A stretch of DNA of 64,000 nucleotides, from NCBI GenBank assembly GCA_020831965.1, contig JAFIFP010000009.1, positions 62,001 to 126,000 of the forward strand, written 5' to 3'. The translations under genes were made by a program, and so were the position numbers. The notes under the pieces are model-generated. The model had not been told where the DNA came from. It saw nothing but the letters and a program-made list of their open reading frames with translations, and did no database searches. This DNA is from Idiomarina sp. (GTDB taxonomy: Bacteria > Pseudomonadota > Gammaproteobacteria > Enterobacterales > Alteromonadaceae). This document shows, in pieces, positions 20,517 through 41,545 of the stretch; position 1 is the stretch's first letter; each line of letters begins with the position of its first letter.

Positions 20517-23459
20517 TTAGAACGAGTAGTTCAAGTTCAAGAATGCACGACGGCCCAAGTTATCGAACTGTGAGTACAGTGCCGAATTACCTACGTTACG
20601 AAGACCTGACGCAGGGCTCACCAAAGGTGGCTTCTTGTCAAAGATGTTCGCAATACCCGCAGTCACGTCGAAATCGCTGAAGCGATAGTTCACTGACGCA
20701 GTATGGTAAACAGTCGTTGGTGCAGATGCACGGAAGAACACATCAGTTCCCCGATAAACTGTTTGATTGCCGTTGGTGTAAGTGTCGTAGTTATCCGTCT
20801 TCTCATAGTAACGAATCGCGTAGTTAAAGCCCCAGTTATCGCGGCTCAACGACGTATTCAAAGTACCAGAGTGCTTCGGATTACCAACACGACCAATTGG
20901 GTCAACAGCAGTGCTGTCTGGGAACTGCTTGAACGAACGCTCTAGCTGAACCGTGTGGTCTAAACGGACACGTACGAAACCAAATGGAGTATCGTTCGCG
21001 AAGGTTGCACGGAAGTCAGCACCACGCACGAACTGACGCGCTACGTTCACGTAACCACCGCGAACAGTGTTGATACCCCAGTTCCCGTCCTCAGTGCCAT
21101 CGTTACGATCGATCTGATCACAGAACGGCTCGTTCTCGAAGTCTTCAGACGAATAACACAAGTTTAGGATCTGAACACCACCAACGTTAGAAACCTGGTT
21201 AGTGATTTCAACTTCATAATAGTCAGCAGAAGCTGCCCAGACGTTGTCAGAGCTAGTCCAAACTAAACCAACACCTTTAGAGGTTGAGGTTTCCGCTTGC
21301 AAGACACCCGCACCACCACCGGTGATCGCTGTAGCTGAACCGAAGTTGTTCGCATAATCGCTAGGTACACCCGCTGCTGCACAGTTCTGAGCAACGATTG
21401 GGTTCAACGTACCTTCGTCTTCACGCGCGCCCCAGTTAAAGCAAGGATCGCTTTGCTGGTTGAAGAACGACGATTGATTCTCTAGATAAAGTTCGAACAA
21501 CGCCGGAGCACGGAACGAAGTACCTTGTGAGGCACGAACCTGGAAACCGCCGCCGATACGCCAGTTTAAGCTCGCCCGATACGTCGTATCACTACCGTAA
21601 GCATTTACGTCGGTATAGCGCGCAGATGCGGTAAAATCGAGTACCTCAACGAAGGGCAGGTCACGCAGTAAAGGAACGTTCGCTTCACCGTAGACCGCGC
21701 GTGTGGTTGAACGCCCAGCAGTAATACCAGCAGACGTCATACCCCACGAGTTGCCCAAGCGAGTCATTTCACCCGGAGTGTCCTGAATTTGATCCGTTTG
21801 GTAAGCGACACCGGCCGCGATTGCGACAGTACCTGCTGGGAGATCGAACACGTCACCTGTGATGTACGCATCGAAGGTATCTTGCTTATAGATGGTACGA
21901 CCTGTTTCAGAATCGAATAGGAAGTCTTTAGTTCCTTGCGTATGATTACCACGAAGGTACTCAGGGTCAAAGAAAGGTACTTCGTAACAAGGGCGACCTG
22001 AAATTGGACTGAATTCGCCTACACAAGGATCGCCCCAGAGTGCATCAGACGCCATTACTAAGGCATCGTCTAAGATAATTTTCTGGAAGTACTCACCACG
22101 GTTTAAGCTGCGCTGGAATGAGGCATCCCAATTCCAGAAGCCAATTGAACCTTCTACACCGATCACTGCACGGGTGTAATCTACAGTAGTAGTACCACCC
22201 GAGTGGTCTGTGACCGTGGTTGGATCGAGGAATACGTCACCATCCCAACCCGGTACAATTCCAAACCATGCTGGAATGAAGGGTTCCCAGAATTGGCGAT
22301 AGCCATTGGTTTTCGTCTCACGTTGACTATGCATCAACTCGAAATAGGCATTAGTCGTGTGCGTCAGATCGTAATCACCTTGAGTGTAGATTGACCAGAT
22401 CGTTGTTTCTGGGATCATGGTCGCCAAATCTTGGAACGGGTGGCTTGCGTCTAACCAACCATCAGACTCAAAATCGAATCCTACTGGGTACCAGCCCTCT
22501 GGAGTTTGAATGTCACCCGGATTTACAGGGGTATAACCTGCACGACCAGCAGCCGCATGGGCGCCGTCATAATCGAATGAATTGATTAGCGCAGTGTAGT
22601 TTCCTGCACCCGCATTCCATAACCACATACCATAAGGTAAGTCGTTACAGTGAAACTCACCGGTACGTGGATCGATTGGATCGGCACGCTCGCCGCTTGC
22701 CGCGTCGAATAAGTAACGCTGGCGGCACTCAAAATGTTCACGGTCACCACGAGCTAACTCTGATTGATGCTTGTAGTCAGCAACAATACGGAATGAACCG
22801 CGGTCAAAAGTAGTACCCCAAGTACCGTTAATGCCATAGCTTTCCCCGCCTGATTCGAACGGCTGGTTAACGTTGACATTGATGCTCGACTCGTCACCAC
22901 GCTTAGTGATGATGTTAATTACACCAGCAACAGCATCAGAACCATAAAGAGAAGATGCACCCTCTTTCATGATTTCAACACGCTCTACCGCTGAAATTGG
23001 AATGGCGTTCATATCGAACGCAGCAACCTGACCACGCGTACCTGCAGGTCCAGCGCGACGACCATTCAACAATACGAGAGTACGGTTTGCACCTAAACCA
23101 CGCATTGAAATGGATTCAGCACCTGTACCACCTTCGGTAACCGCACCTACGGAGATTGCTGCTGTTAACTGGTTAGAACCAGAAGCGACGGTTGCTGTAC
23201 GCAGTAACTCACCGAGTGAGTTAATACCTTGTTCAGTGGCAAGCTCTGCACTGATTACGTCGATTGGCGTTGCATTATCAATTGCATCGGTACGAATACG
23301 CGAACCAACCACCTGAACGCGCTCAACGCGCTGTTCTTGGACCTGCTCTTCTTCGTCATTCTCTTGCGCTGTAGCAGTACCAGTGACTGCTAACGCAGAG
23401 GCACCACCAAATGCTAATGCAAGGCGAATCGACTTGTTTAAACTATTGCTAGCAAACAT
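20517..23459 (-). CDS. TonB-dependent outer-membrane receptor, paralogue 1
   Basis: 980 residues from ATG 23459, preceded by GGGAGA. The upstream in-frame start at 23498 lacks such a site. The signal peptide (about 1-31) is nearly identical to that of paralogue 2. The plug domain (about 50-180) has VERVQVVGSRIRTD, MRGLGANRTLVLLNGRR and YGSDAVAGVINIITK. The barrel ends RRAFLNLNYSF with a terminal Phe. The TonB box is not obvious; the short acidic stretch after the signal peptide may contain it. Such 'Oar-like' receptors in marine bacteria take up peptides, glycans or siderophores; no Fur box was seen, so iron is not specially indicated. Substrate unknown. Confidence 0.93.
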   Translation of the reverse strand: MFASNSLNKSIRLALAFGGASALAVTGTATAQENDEEEQVQEQRVERVQVVGSRIRTDAIDNATPIDVISAELATEQGINSLGELLRTATVASGSNQLTAAISVGAVTEGGTGAESISMRGLGANRTLVLLNGRRAGPAGTRGQVAAFDMNAIPISAVERVEIMKEGASSLYGSDAVAGVINIITKRGDESSINVNVNQPFESGGESYGINGTWGTTFDRGSFRIVADYKHQSELARGDREHFECRQRYLFDAASGERADPIDPRTGEFHCNDLPYGMWLWNAGAGNYTALINSFDYDGAHAAAGRAGYTPVNPGDIQTPEGWYPVGFDFESDGWLDASHPFQDLATMIPETTIWSIYTQGDYDLTHTTNAYFELMHSQRETKTNGYRQFWEPFIPAWFGIVPGWDGDVFLDPTTVTDHSGGTTTVDYTRAVIGVEGSIGFWNWDASFQRSLNRGEYFQKIILDDALVMASDALWGDPCVGEFSPISGRPCYEVPFFDPEYLRGNHTQGTKDFLFDSETGRTIYKQDTFDAYITGDVFDLPAGTVAIAAGVAYQTDQIQDTPGEMTRLGNSWGMTSAGITAGRSTTRAVYGEANVPLLRDLPFVEVLDFTASARYTDVNAYGSDTTYRASLNWRIGGGFQVRASQGTSFRAPALFELYLENQSSFFNQQSDPCFNWGAREDEGTLNPIVAQNCAAAGVPSDYANNFGSATAITGGGAGVLQAETSTSKGVGLVWTSSDNVWAASADYYEVEITNQVSNVGGVQILNLCYSSEDFENEPFCDQIDRNDGTEDGNWGINTVRGGYVNVARQFVRGADFRATFANDTPFGFVRVRLDHTVQLERSFKQFPDSTAVDPIGRVGNPKHSGTLNTSLSRDNWGFNYAIRYYEKTDNYDTYTNGNQTVYRGTDVFFRASAPTTVYHTASVNYRFSDFDVTAGIANIFDKKPPLVSPASGLRNVGNSALYSQFDNLGRRAFLNLNYSF

Positions 23460-23573
23460 AGATGTCTCCCTGAAACGACGGAACTGCTGTGTGAACATGC
23501 GTCCGTCTCTATTTTTTTACGTGTGTGTGATTTGTAAAGCATTCGAAAAATATATGTTCTGTTTTTATTGTGA

Positions 23574-23599
23574 CATGACATGACAGCAGTCATGTCATG
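23574..23599. repeat. Perfect inverted repeat, possible operator
   Basis: Arms CATGACATGAC and GTCATGTCATG (11 bp each) are separated by AGCA. It sits 115-140 bases upstream of the receptor 1 start and just upstream of the proposed -10. No counterpart was found before receptor 2. It could be a regulator binding site; as RNA it would form a hairpin without a U tract, so a terminator is unlikely. Confidence 0.7.
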
Positions 23600-23671
23600 G
23601 AAACCCGCTCCGTGGTGCACCAACAAAACATTCCTATCAACCTCTCAATACTAAACGTCTGAACTTAAAAT

Positions 23672-23689
23672 TCCATCATTTTTTAACAT
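23672..23689 (-). repeat. 18-bp element shared by both TonB receptor upstream regions (copy 1)
   Basis: The sequence ATGTTAAAAAATGATGGA on the coding strand is identical to 26958-26975. It lies 213 bases before the start of receptor 1. A 9-mer TAGGAATGT (23628-23636) follows it downstream on the same strand, and a looser 20-mer (23731-23750) lies upstream. Confidence 0.7.
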
Positions 23690-23763
23690 GAGAGTGGGCA
23701 TTTACATGGGAAATGGGCAATAGGTTGTATAACTTCGGCAAATAACGTAGTGATTTTGTGAAC

Positions 23764-23796
23764 AAAAAAGCACCAACCCTTGCGGGTTGGTGCTTT
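23764..23796 (-). terminator. Intrinsic terminator of the second TonB receptor
   Basis: A 13-bp stem (23767-23779 with 23784-23796) and 4-base loop, followed by a U tract on the minus strand, 36 bases past the receptor 2 stop. Confidence 0.92.
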
Positions 23797-23831
23797 CATT
23801 CTAACTTTCTTTAACGTTTCTTAATGCTTAA

Positions 23832-26777
23832 TTAGAAGCTATAAGTTGCGTTCAAGAATGCACGACGACCTAGGAGGTCGTATTGTGATGCGAACAACAG
23901 AGTGTTACCGGCAGTGTTAACCGCTGCTGGTGAACCCTGAGGTGGGATGCGATCGAACAAGTTCGATACACCAAACGTCAGGTCGATGTTGTCAAACACT
24001 GTAGTGTTTGCAGACAGTGAGTGCATGAAGTAAGTCGGCGCATGCGCTACGAAGCGGAACGTACCACCACCATCATTTGGACGGCTGGTGATGCGGTTTC
24101 CATTTAAGAAACCATCGTAGTTCGATACTGCGCTAACATACTGAATATTCCAGTTGAAGCGCCAGTTATCACGCTGCAAGCTGGTGTTTAAGTTACCAGA
24201 ATGCTTCGGAGAGCCGATGCGACCAGTGAATACAAACTTGTCACTGTCAGCAAACGTTTTGTTGTAGCGCTCAATCGTCGCAGTGTGGTTCAAGCGAACA
24301 CGTAACAGACCCACTGGAGTTTCTTCAGTATAAGTTGCTACTAAGTCAACACCACGAATGCCCTGCTCCGCTACGTTCAAGTAACCACCGCGAACTTCTT
24401 GTACACCCCAGTCATCATCAATACCGGTACGGCGAGTGATCTGACGACAGAACGGCTCGTTCTCGATACCAACTTCAGTGGTATAACACTGGTTCAGTAC
24501 AGTCGCGCCACCAATGTTCGAGATTTGGCCTTCAATGATTACGTCATAGTAATCGATTGAACCCGCAAAGCGATTCATTGGGCTGGTGTAAACTAAGCCA
24601 ATACCTTTAGAAACTGACGTTTCTGCATCAAGCTGGCCAACACCACCACCCGTGATAGAGGTGATTGAACCACCTACTGGTGCGATGTAAGACTCAGGCA
24701 CGCCTGCTGCTTGACAGTTTTGCTGGATCAGAGGGTTATTTGATTCAACCCAATTCACACATGGATCGCTGTTCTGACCTAAGAAGCCTGTTTGCTGCTG
24801 AAGATAAAGTTCGAACAGTGCTGGTGCACGGAACGAAGTACCTTGTGAAGCACGGACACGGAAACCACCGCCTACGTTCCAGTTAATGCTTGCCTTGTAT
24901 GTTGAACCACTTCCGTAAGCACTTACTTCGGTGTAACGAGCTGACGCCGTCAAGTCAAACGACTCTGCGAAAGGCAAATCACGTAATACCGGAATTACCA
25001 CCTCACCATAGACAGCGCGAGTCGTTGCTCGGCCTGCAGTAATACCTGCTGAGGTCAGACCCCAAGAGTTACCAGTGCGTGAGTTGATACCAGGAGTATC
25101 TTGTAATTCGTCAGTTTGATAAGACACACCCACTGCCGTTGCTACAGTACCTGCTGGCAAGTCGAACAAGTCACCAGTGATGTATGCATCAAAGGTATCT
25201 TGCTTGTAGATGGTTTTACCTTTATCAGAAGCCTGAACGAAATCACGGAATCCTTGCGAGAAATCACCACGCAAGAAGTCTGGACTCCACCATGGCTCTT
25301 CCACACACGCACGGCCAGAGATTGGTGAAGTTTCACCAGCACAGTCGCCTGCACCTAAGGCCCACAAGTGATACATGCGGAATGAATCAGCAAGGTAGAT
25401 ATCTTGCTCGTAAGTACCACGGTTCAGTGAACGTTGGAACGACGCGTCCCAGTTCCAAAAACCGAGCGAACCTTCGAGGCCAATAACACCACGAGTGTAA
25501 TCAACAACAGTTTCGCTGCTGAAGTGATTAGTCAATGCAACGTACTGAACTGTTGCAGAACCTTCCCAGCCAGGAATGTTGTTGATTGGAATCTGAGCTG
25601 GTAAGCCAGGGTGCGATGGGAAGATCTGACGCACGCTGTCTGCGTTAGTTGTACGCTGTGAGTGCATGAACTCACCGTACAATGAAATCGTATTCGTAAG
25701 GTCGTAGTCACCTTGTGTATACACAGACATCACACGGCTTTCTGGAATCATGGACTGCGCACGATGACGATCACTTGATCCATCGAACCAACCATCAGTT
25801 TCGTAGTCGCGACCTGACCAGAACCAGCCTGCAGGTGCTGTGTCAACTAGCGGGTGATCACCTTCGATTGGCGGGAAACCAAATCCATCATAATCGAACT
25901 GGAAGCGTCCGCCCTGACCCGAGAACAAGCCGAAGCCCGCTGCGTTACAGTGTGGTTCACCAGTACGAGGATCGATTGGATCCGCACGCTCGCCAGTTTC
26001 GAAATCAAACCAGTAGCGGCTGTTACATGCAAAATGGCTACGATCGCCGCGCTTCAGACCAGTGTTGTGGTTGTAGTCAGCAACAACACGGAATGAACCG
26101 CGATCAAATGTGGTACCCCAAGTACCATTGACTCGGAAGGTTTCCCCGCCTGAATCAAATGGTTGGCTAGCACTTACGTTGATGCTTGATTCATCGCCAC
26201 GCTTAGTGATGATGTTAATTACACCAGCAACCGCGTCCGAACCGTACAGTGAAGATGCACCATCTTTCAGGATTTCTACACGCTCAACGGCAGAAACTGG
26301 CAATGCGTTCATATCGAATGCAGCAACCTGACCACGCGTACCCGCAGGACCGGCACGACGGCCGTTCAAGAGCACGAGTGTACGGTTAGCACCCAAACCA
26401 CGCATAGAGATTGATTCAGCACCTGAACCACCGGCTGTTACGAAGCCGACAGAATAAGCAGAAATCAGCTGGTCAGAGCCAGACGCAATAGTTGAAGTAC
26501 GGAGCAATTCACCTAGAGTGTTTAGGCCCTGTTCGGTAGCAAGCTCAGTACTGATAATGTCGATTGGAGCGGCGCTATCAAGGCCGTCCGTACGAATCCG
26601 TGAACCAACGACCTGAACCCGCTCAACGCGCTGCTCTGTACGGGCCTCTGATTCTTCTTCTTCGTTGTTGCTTTGTTGTTGTTGCGCGCTTACGGCTCCA
26701 GCAAAGGCTAGAGCAGAAGCTCCGCCGAATGCTAACGCAAGGCGAATCGATCTGTTTAAACTATTACTAGCAAACAT
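23832..26777 (-). CDS. TonB-dependent outer-membrane receptor, paralogue 2
   Basis: 981 residues, preceded by GGGGAGA. Same order as paralogue 1: signal peptide (about 1-32), acidic linker, plug (about 55-185, with VERVQVVGSRIRTD and LVLLNGRRAGPAGTRG), then barrel ending RRAFLNATYSF. The two proteins are within one residue of the same length. They are nearly identical through the plug and the start of the barrel and diverge in the predicted external loops, the pattern expected after tandem duplication with change of ligand. A separate terminator and upstream region suggest independent transcription. Substrate unknown. Confidence 0.93.
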   Translation of the reverse strand: MFASNSLNRSIRLALAFGGASALAFAGAVSAQQQQSNNEEEESEARTEQRVERVQVVGSRIRTDGLDSAAPIDIISTELATEQGLNTLGELLRTSTIASGSDQLISAYSVGFVTAGGSGAESISMRGLGANRTLVLLNGRRAGPAGTRGQVAAFDMNALPVSAVERVEILKDGASSLYGSDAVAGVINIITKRGDESSINVSASQPFDSGGETFRVNGTWGTTFDRGSFRVVADYNHNTGLKRGDRSHFACNSRYWFDFETGERADPIDPRTGEPHCNAAGFGLFSGQGGRFQFDYDGFGFPPIEGDHPLVDTAPAGWFWSGRDYETDGWFDGSSDRHRAQSMIPESRVMSVYTQGDYDLTNTISLYGEFMHSQRTTNADSVRQIFPSHPGLPAQIPINNIPGWEGSATVQYVALTNHFSSETVVDYTRGVIGLEGSLGFWNWDASFQRSLNRGTYEQDIYLADSFRMYHLWALGAGDCAGETSPISGRACVEEPWWSPDFLRGDFSQGFRDFVQASDKGKTIYKQDTFDAYITGDLFDLPAGTVATAVGVSYQTDELQDTPGINSRTGNSWGLTSAGITAGRATTRAVYGEVVIPVLRDLPFAESFDLTASARYTEVSAYGSGSTYKASINWNVGGGFRVRASQGTSFRAPALFELYLQQQTGFLGQNSDPCVNWVESNNPLIQQNCQAAGVPESYIAPVGGSITSITGGGVGQLDAETSVSKGIGLVYTSPMNRFAGSIDYYDVIIEGQISNIGGATVLNQCYTTEVGIENEPFCRQITRRTGIDDDWGVQEVRGGYLNVAEQGIRGVDLVATYTEETPVGLLRVRLNHTATIERYNKTFADSDKFVFTGRIGSPKHSGNLNTSLQRDNWRFNWNIQYVSAVSNYDGFLNGNRITSRPNDGGGTFRFVAHAPTYFMHSLSANTTVFDNIDLTFGVSNLFDRIPPQGSPAAVNTAGNTLLFASQYDLLGRRAFLNATYSF

Positions 26778-27048
26778 AGATTTCTCCCCAGAACCACGGA
26801 AGTCTGGTGGCTACGCCCCATCTCCCGTTTACTTAGTTTAATGTGTGTGCTTCTAAAACCGGACCAAAATTGAGGGGTTTCCATCGATTTTGTTTACCTC
26901 TTAACAACTTCGGCCAATCCGTAGAGCAATTTCATAATAAATACATTCCTACAAAAATCCATCATTTTTTAACATTAAATCAGGATTAGCTTCATCAAAT
27001 GTTCACGAATATGAGTAGTTTGTAGCAATATCTATACACAACAGGCAT
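26778..27048 (-). promoter_or_regulatory. Upstream region of TonB receptor 2
   Basis: About 270 bases without a gene. It contains the shared 18-mer (26958-26975), the 9-mer TAGGAATGT (26943-26951), a variant of the shared 20-mer (26906-26924) and a CA repeat (26843-26850) about 66 bases before the ATG, directly after a TAGAA-type box. The order of the shared elements differs from that before receptor 1. No Fur-like or CRP-like palindrome was recognised. Confidence 0.5.
26958..26975 (-). repeat. 18-bp element shared by both TonB receptor upstream regions (copy 2)
   Basis: Identical to 23672-23689 and 181 bases before the start of receptor 2. The 9-mer TAGGAATGT follows 6 bases further on, against 35 bases at copy 1. 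Confidence 0.7.
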
Positions 27049-27076
27049 AAAAAAACCCGGCCGAAGCCGGGTTTTT
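27049..27076 (-). terminator. Intrinsic terminator of the rpsP-rplS operon
   Basis: An 11-bp stem (27051-27061 with 27066-27076), CGAA loop and U tract on the minus strand, 20 bases after the rplS stop. Confidence 0.94.
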
Positions 27077-27095
27077 AGTATCGGAGAACTGCTGT

Positions 27096-27455
27096 TTAGC
27101 CCAGCTTTTCTTTGATACGCGCTGATTTTCCGCTGCGCTCGCGCAGGTAGTAGAGCTTCGCACGACGAACTGCACCACGACGCTTCACAGTAATACTGTC
27201 GATCAGTGGGCTGTGCGTTTGGAAAGTACGCTCAACACCTTCACCGCTAGAAATTTTACGAACCGTGAATGCACTGTGCAGACCACGGTTACGCTTACGA
27301 ATGACCACGCCTTCAAAAGCCTGGACTCGCTCGCGGTTACCTTCTTTAACTTTAACGTTGACGATAACGGTATCACCCGGAGCAAACTCCGGAAGATTGC
27401 CTTTCAGCTGCTCGTTTTCGAGTTCCAGCAGAATAGACTTGTTTACTTTTGCCAT
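27096..27455 (-). CDS. rplS: 50S ribosomal protein L19
   Basis: 119 residues, the standard length. It contains [29 protein letters not shown] and [16 protein letters not shown], hallmarks of bL19, which sits at the 30S-50S interface. Last gene of the conserved rpsP-rimM-trmD-rplS operon; a strong terminator follows. GGAGGAG lies upstream of the start. Confidence 0.98.
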
Positions 27456-40414: not shown

Positions 40415-41545
40415 CTAACCCACTAAGGCCAATAAAACCCCCGCTGCAACGGCAGAACCAAGCACACCCGCGACGTTCGGTCCCATCGCATGCATCAATA
40501 AAAAGTTCTGCGAGTCAGCTGCCAAGCCTTCTTTATTGACAACTCGCGCTGCCATGGGAACTGCCGATACTCCAGCGGCGCCAATCAGTGGATTAATGGG
40601 TGTCTTACTCACAAGATTCATTAACTTCGCCATCAGAATGCCGGCGGCCGTGCCAAAGACAAAAGCCAACGCCCCCAACACTAAGATCCCCAAGGTTTCT
40701 AAAGTTAGGAATGAGCCTGCGCTTAGCTGCGCACCAACCGCTAATCCAAGGAATATTGTCACCAAGTTAATGAGCTCGTTTTGAGCCGTTTTACTTAAGC
40801 GGTCAACGACGCCGCTCTCACGCATCAAGTTACCTAAACAGAACATTCCTACCAGCGGCGCAGCAGTCGGAAGCAGAAGCGCTGTAAGCAACAACACCAT
40901 CAGCGGAAACAAAATCCGAGCTCGCTTTGACACAGGCTTCAATTGTGTCATACGAATGGTACGTTCTTTCTTCGTGGTCAGTAAGCGCATCACCGGCGGC
41001 TGCAAAATAGGCACTAACGCCATGTAAGAATAGGCCGCCACCGCGATCGCACCGAGCAGTTCAGGAGCTATTTGGGACGATAAATAGATGGCCGTAGGGC
41101 CGTCAGCGCCACCAATAATGGCAATCGCGGCCGCTTGTTCAAGAGTAAAGTTCAAACCCGGTACCGCGTTCAGTGCAATCGCGCCAATGAGCGTCGCAAA
41201 AATACCAAACTGCGCTGCGGCGCCTAACAACAGCATGCGTGGATTGGCAAGCAGTGCACTAAAATCAGTTAATGCGCCAACTCCAAGAAAAATAAGTAAG
41301 GGAAATACCCCCGTACCAATTCCAACCTCGTAAAGCACATAAAGCAGCCCGCCAGGATCATTTAACCCTGCGAGTGGAATATTCGTGAGCACTGCACCAA
41401 AGCCGATAGGCAATAGTAAAAGAGGCTCAAATTTGTGGACTATAGCTAAGTAGACCAGCCCTAACCCAACGGAGATCATGAGCAACATGCCCCAGGTTAG
41501 CGACCCTACACCCGTGGTTTGCCAAAGCGTTAGCAAGGTTTCCAC
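40415..41545 (-). CDS. oadB: Na+-pumping oxaloacetate decarboxylase, beta subunit
   Basis: 376 residues, with a GTG start (41545) and AGGAG 7 bases before it. Nine or more membrane helices. The conserved pore segment [42 protein letters not shown] (split here around ADGPTAIYL and [10 protein letters not shown]) carries the Asp and Tyr implicated in Na+ transport. A second conserved block is [18 protein letters not shown]. It decarboxylates carboxybiotin and exports Na+. Third gene of oadGAB. Confidence 0.96.

Follow-up and report, generated by a model that had tools for sequence, protein, structure and literature searches.

Tandem receptor genes and their upstream regions

The minus strand of the window, the whole 64,000-nucleotide (nt) stretch of Idiomarina sp. 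DNA that was analyzed, carries two genes for TonB-dependent receptors in tandem. Receptor 2 (R2, 23832..26777) comes first and encodes 981 amino acids. Receptor 1 (R1, 20517..23459), downstream of R2, encodes 980 amino acids from an ATG at 23459; a longer open reading frame (ORF) for R1 begins at 23498. Both proteins belong to the TonB-dependent receptors, as their Plug (PF07715) and β-barrel (PF00593) domains exceed the Pfam cut-off. The genome that carries the pair comprises 2.67 Mb in 14 contigs. Before each gene lies the same 18-mer, ATGTTAAAAAATGATGGA on the coding strand (23672..23689 before R1 and 26958..26975 before R2, both on the minus strand). The origin and the possible role of this element are the subject of the present analysis.

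The upstream limit of each promoter region was set at an inverted repeat followed by a T-run, both recognized by reading. For R1 this is the element at 23770..23793 (minus strand), which we read as the terminator of R2 and which a terminator scan did not list. For R2 it is the element at 27056..27071 (minus strand) after the upstream ORF 27096-27455, which we take to encode ribosomal protein L19; the scan gave another terminator-like site here, 27059-27042. The regions compared, from terminator to ATG, thus measure 304 and 271 nt.

A sequence-only reading of this DNA had described three blocks before both genes: the 18-mer, a 9-mer and a looser element. It took their changed order as a sign of binding sites kept by selection since the duplication. 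All three are present where they were reported, and the 18-mer is identical in both copies. The 9-mer TAGGAATGT lies at 23628..23636 before R1 and at 26943..26951 before R2. The looser element (CTACGTTATTTGCCGAAGTT at 23731..23750 before R1, CTACGGATTGGCCGAAGTT at 26906..26924 before R2) is a match of 20 to 19 nt with one gap. Putative -10 hexamers, TAGTAT before R1 (23648..23653) and TATTAT before R2 (26934..26939), have the same offset of 36 nt, counted from the 18-mer start. All these elements are on the minus strand. On the coding strand, the order before R1 is looser element, 18-mer, 9-mer, and before R2 it is 18-mer, 9-mer, looser element, literally as had been described.

Among the three blocks only the 18-mer is firm. 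Together with its flank it scores 20, whereas 2000 dinucleotide shuffles give a mean of 8.4 and do not exceed 14, and at up to three mismatches it occurs at only these two places in the whole genome on both strands. When the blocks were ranked without masking, those in places two to four (looser-element core, Shine-Dalgarno (SD) region and 9-mer) likewise seemed to score unusually high for their position in the list (P = 0.0075, 0.0085 and 0). Once the 18-mer and the SD region were cut out, the score of the 9-mer was reached in 25.7% of 3000 shuffles (P = 0.26). For the looser element, the ungapped 13-nt core was matched in 7.4% and the gapped 20-nt version in 3.7% of 3000 shuffles (P 0.04-0.07). 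The looser element is therefore borderline and the 9-mer is indistinguishable from chance. The latter has a third copy within the window at 40843 and eight copies in the genome. Random genome-wide occurrence was not seen for the other two: the looser element (exact pattern with gap) is, like the 18-mer, confined to these two places in the genome.

The 18-mer, the -10-like hexamer, the SD sequence and the start codon follow each other in the same coding-strand order in R1 and R2. The looser element is the sole block out of order, and the 9-mer precedes the -10-like hexamer in R2, where it follows the 18-mer, and in R1 it lies beyond the hexamer. A collinear alignment of the upstream regions fits the supported parts without any rearrangement, with extra sequence in R1. 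The rearranged order is thus without solid support, because the 9-mer and the looser element are at or near chance level once the 18-mer is masked, and for the same reason we rejected rearranged binding sites as an explanation. The case is a caution against taking short matches between two AT-rich upstream regions for reordered binding sites.

Age of the duplication

The R1 and R2 proteins are 63.6% identical. At four-fold degenerate sites 159 of 326 positions (48.8%) agree, compared to 39.9% expected at saturation, so that the silent sites are near saturated. A tree of 20 receptors places R2 with the b and c genes of four other genomes (98/94), and this group joins G011_b (100/100); R1 clusters with the a genes (92/95). 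Since R1 and R2 fall into different clades together with genes of other species, they are old paralogues whose duplication predates the split of these species, and the 18-mer is therefore not a plain leftover of the duplication. The near-saturated silent sites and the eroded DNA around the 18-mer suggest that 18 identical bases reflect constraint or later copying, not passive survival. The earlier proposal, that selection rather than leftover homology preserved the element, is supported to this extent.

The 18-mer in related receptors and other genomes

An alignment-based search of genome contigs found at least 33 loci with related receptors, from which 40 genes were taken. Start codons were chosen by rule, and 350 nt upstream were inspected on both strands; some of these regions (for example L068_8242, L069_8253, L071_4931 and L092_4952) begin at an upstream in-frame ATG. 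All 40 regions differ from the 18-mer by at least four mismatches on either strand (four in one gene, five in three and six to eight in 36). The element is thus absent upstream of the orthologous receptors examined, an outcome that the sequence-only reading had itself named as refuting. Together with the separation of the clades before these species, it leaves retention since the duplication unsupported.

When two mismatches are allowed, a match is present in five of the 17 genus genomes. The four outside this genome have a single match each, none of them at a receptor among the receptor matches listed; one site is common to G009 and G010. At up to one mismatch, nine of 395 genomes of the family, this one included, have a match, and the eight one-mismatch matches outside this genome compare to seven for a backwards control. 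A genome-wide or family-wide regulon was therefore rejected: the 18-mer and the looser element are unique to the pair in the genome, one-mismatch matches in other genomes are similar in number to the control, the 18-mer does not recur at other receptors of this genome within three mismatches, and it is not conserved upstream of the 40 orthologues.

Tandem receptors of the same clade are found as a pair or triplet in Aliidiomarina-type genomes (G001, G002, G003, G005 and G011). Their upstream regions differ from those of R1 and R2 in that they contain no 18-mer within two mismatches and have other promoter-like blocks. For comparisons among upstream regions we used a set of 43 (58 minus 15 duplicates from the same or near-identical genomes). 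An operator of the form TGTTAA...TTAACA (G002_b, G003_b), the left half of which resembles the 18-mer, was also considered; R1 and R2 are not among its carriers. With gaps of 4-18 nt this dyad occurs in four of the 43 regions (shuffle mean 0.16, maximum 2), two with a gap of 6 and two with a gap of 15 (sister genomes G005 and G001). The sequence TAATGTTAAAAAA is common to the upstream regions of R2 and G002_b; this match is weak, being the best of 11 comparisons of R1 or R2 with orthologues, and 5 of 400 shuffles were as good.

A shared segment at the 5′ end

The resemblance between R1 and R2 continues at the start of the genes. From position -30 to codon 16 (23412..23489 for R1 and 26730..26807 for R2, minus strand), 21 of the 30 nt before the ATG are identical, and the first 30 coding nt are identical to 90%. 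In these 30 nt R1 reaches at most 73% identity to a genes and R2 at most 60% to b/c genes. Both proteins have the unusual start MFASNSLN. Among 15 further related genes in the genus, eleven start with MFTN or MYTN and four otherwise (G013 was left out because its start was not found); on contig C14 of the genome that carries the pair, a third related receptor begins with the ordinary MYTNSKL. At up to three mismatches the shared start DNA is unique to the pair.

Along the coding alignment, the identity of R1 to R2 exceeds the maxima of the orthologues at columns 0-60 and 150-180, so that paralogues are closer than orthologues there, against the gene tree, as expected for gene conversion. From column 180 onwards, the orthologues are at equal or closer distance along most of the alignment; columns 1800-2000 deviate from this, and columns 1600-1800 and 2400-2600 do so for one side only. 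Private sites were defined as positions where R1 and R2 agree and all 11 genes of the comparison (G011_a omitted) differ from them. There are 40 of them among 2877 sites, and 11 fall within the first 150 (P = 3e-6). In the sister genomes G005 and G001, sites private to the a copy and the b or c copy show a weak excess over the first 180 columns (P 0.0007-0.017); no such excess is seen in G003 (0 of 6 private sites) and G002 (1 of 12).

Upstream of the genes, identity from the terminator to the 18-mer is 39.7%, which is chance level (42 of 60 letter shuffles as high). From the 18-mer to position -30 it is 50.3%, a value that none of 60 shuffles reached (mean 43.9%, maximum 50%). The 18-mer therefore lies at the upstream edge of a remnant common 5′ segment. 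The weak residual homology runs collinearly from the 18-mer towards the start codon and does not extend upstream of the 18-mer; between the 18-mer and the gene it has eroded to 50%. As a control, best upstream match scores were determined for nine within-genome tandem receptor pairs of other species (400 shuffles each). These scores range from 17 to 26, compared to 41 for R1-R2, which no shuffle equaled. Among the control pairs, 3 of 400 shuffles were as good for G005_b/G005_c, 21 of 400 for G002_a/G002_b and 65-341 of 400 for the other seven.

The 18-mer as part of a proposed promoter

A core promoter, with an A-tract/UP element and the -35 region inside the 18-mer and at its end, is probably the most economical reading of this element, judged from its sequence context. 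Sigma-70 core promoters with an UP element are a textbook class. In both genes the A-tract lies just 5′ of the -35-like position, and the -10-like hexamer follows at a spacing of 16-17 nt. Unlike promoters of this class, R1 and R2 have poor -35 hexamers, and a strict scan does not call the site. TAGTAT matches the consensus TATAAT at four and TATTAT at five of six positions, and the TATTAT promoter has the top score in the upstream region of R2. The best upstream match between G003_a and G002_a is a promoter-like block, TTGATC-18-TATTAT/TAATAT, and supports the analogy to a core promoter. A sigma-28-like reading of GCCGAAGTT was weighed by eye and set aside.

Proposed origin of the 18-mer

Based on these observations we tentatively propose, as an explanation that may well be correct, that the 18-mer is a pair-specific core-promoter patch at the edge of a 5′ segment that was exchanged between the tandem genes and has since eroded. 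A homologous segment comprising promoter, leader and signal-peptide start would be private to R1 and R2 in this lineage, with the 18-mer as its upstream edge. Most likely, it would have been copied between the tandem genes, by gene conversion or unequal exchange, after the receptor clades had split. Later erosion to approximately 50% identity would have spared the constrained parts, namely the 18-mer and the SD/start region. The 18-mer itself would act as the A-tract/UP element and the -35 region of a sigma-70-type promoter, together with the -10-like hexamer at the same offset.

Several points weigh against this proposal. The equal offset of the hexamers has a P of 0.0074 (5000 shuffles) in a test devised post hoc. 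With the promoter scoring matrix used, the R1 promoter at the 18-mer ranks only seventh, behind six other hexamer pairs. The -35 hexamers are weak (TGGATT/ATGGAT in R2, ATGGAA in R1), and the strict consensus scan called two promoters before R1, neither of them at the 18-mer, and none before R2. In the 30 nt after the 18-mer, 13 positions are identical (P = 0.058). The 5′ resemblance is interrupted at coding columns 60-150, where R1-R2 identity is below the orthologue maxima; the 5′ region for the private-site count was picked after the data had been viewed; and 10 further private sites form a second cluster at columns 1860-2040. The same pattern may have arisen by convergence or by two short conversions independent of each other. 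Moreover, the first 11 letters of the 18-mer are present upstream of three R2-type genes (on the coding strand at L070_5000, which is G002_b, and on the other strand at L068_1646 and L069_1644), and part of the element may thus be older than the proposed copying.

As an alternative, the 18-mer could be the operator of a regulator dedicated to the pair, without any rearrangement. The identity of 18 bases despite near-saturated silent sites, as well as their restriction to R1 and R2 in the genome, would suit such a site. However, the element is not palindromic by eye, no other place in the genome and hence no other receptor carries it within three mismatches, and the related receptors examined lack it in their upstream regions. 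Its distances to the 9-mer and the looser element are not the same in R1 and R2, and the equal offset to the -10-like hexamer suits a core promoter better. We consider a dedicated operator rather unlikely. The 18-mer could also be functionless, either a recent short tract of neutral conversion or a chance survivor of a larger one. Nine exact R1-R2 runs of 15-35 nt occur in the coding alignment, and the private sites at columns 1860-2040 suggest that exchange took place elsewhere too. Most of these runs, however, coincide with stretches that are similar in the orthologues too (mostly 0.7-0.95 identity; an exception is run 2062-2078, with R1 at 0.56-0.69). The flanks of the 18-mer are at chance-level and 50% identity, and 18 nt is short for a conversion tract. 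We regard a functionless 18-mer as unlikely too.

More speculatively, the 18-mer would be a newly evolved, lineage-specific operator of a dedicated regulator, kept identical by repeated exchange of the 5′ ends, such that promoter, leader and signal peptide co-evolve while the bodies of the receptors diverge; we regard this as improbable. That the 18-mer acts at the RNA level, within the 5′ untranslated region and perhaps as the target of a small RNA, has very little probability: TonB-receptor leaders are known small-RNA targets and the 18-mer could lie in the leader if transcription started further upstream, but the whole genome has no other near-copy or complement within three mismatches on either strand, no Rfam family exceeds its gathering score in 23300-27150 (six weaker matches, E up to 1), and the folding of the leaders is not conspicuous (z = -1.67 and -1.78). 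Three separate binding sites kept in changed order since the duplication are just as hard to credit, the presence of all three blocks and the pair-unique looser element being outweighed by the chance-level 9-mer on either side of the -10-like hexamer, the collinearity of the supported parts and the lack of the 18-mer at the related receptors examined.

Concerted evolution of prokaryotic paralogues is a known phenomenon (PMC6053082). The R1/R2 patch is similar to it in that paralogues of the same genome match each other better than their orthologues. It differs in being limited to parts of the 5′ end, one upstream patch and a weaker mid-gene cluster, while the remaining gene follows the orthologues. 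In the accessible portions of the literature on Idiomarina TonB-dependent receptors, on upstream regions and gene conversion of paralogues, and on concerted evolution, the R1/R2 pair was not found. Promoter patches and concerted evolution are already known, and R1/R2 is a new example. If the proposed exchange is correct, the pair would represent a small, clear case of tandem outer-membrane receptors with a common promoter and signal-peptide start and with diverging bodies.

Further features near the receptor genes

A perfect inverted repeat, ATGACATGAC-AGCA-GTCATGTCAT, is located upstream of R1 at 23575-23598, within the extra sequence of R1. It occurs at a single place in the genome at up to three mismatches and is thus absent before R2. 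It is a possible candidate for an operator or a leader hairpin.

No other element near these receptors is shared as widely as (C)CAGGGAG, located at the SD position. CAGGGA is present in 28 of the 43 upstream regions (shuffle mean 1.3). In the window the SD regions lie at 23460-23489 and 26778-26807, and R2 has TGGGGAG. The extended SD element is widespread at the starts of this receptor family (loci L033-L038, L068-L100 and L140-L162). The pattern CCAGGGAGN{4,9}ATG was found at 77 places in the 17 genomes, compared to five for a backwards control. At least 26 of the 77 CCAGGGAG..ATG places in the genus are starts of related receptors; this count comes from a scripted comparison of 34 places, the other 43 having been set aside on reading the list. 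The element is similar to a CsrA-type CANGGA site, although it may simply be a strong SD sequence.

A small stem-loop of variable sequence adjoins CAGGGAG in 14 of 30 distinct leaders, compared to 6.4 expected from shuffles. Thirteen of the 14 are of R2 type (G005_c, G001_b, G001_c, G003_b and G002_b, at L033-L036, as well as L072, L073, L078, L093, L094 and L157-L159) and one is G005_a. Another stem-loop was recognized by eye at approximately 1745-1773 of L063. No Rfam family was found in four loci tested. The stem-loop may represent a conserved leader RNA.

L063 (G000:C14:77000-82500) contains the third related receptor, which starts at C14:78780. Its leader carries CCAGGGAG, and codon 214 is an in-frame TAG that may reflect a broken gene, a sequencing error or recoding. 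AT-rich dyads lie upstream of other receptors of this genome; they resemble a Zur-type box at L064 (G000:C12) and Fur-type boxes at L058 (C7) and L059 (C8). At L042 (G016:C22) a related receptor matches in two pieces located in separate ORFs, and is perhaps a decaying gene.

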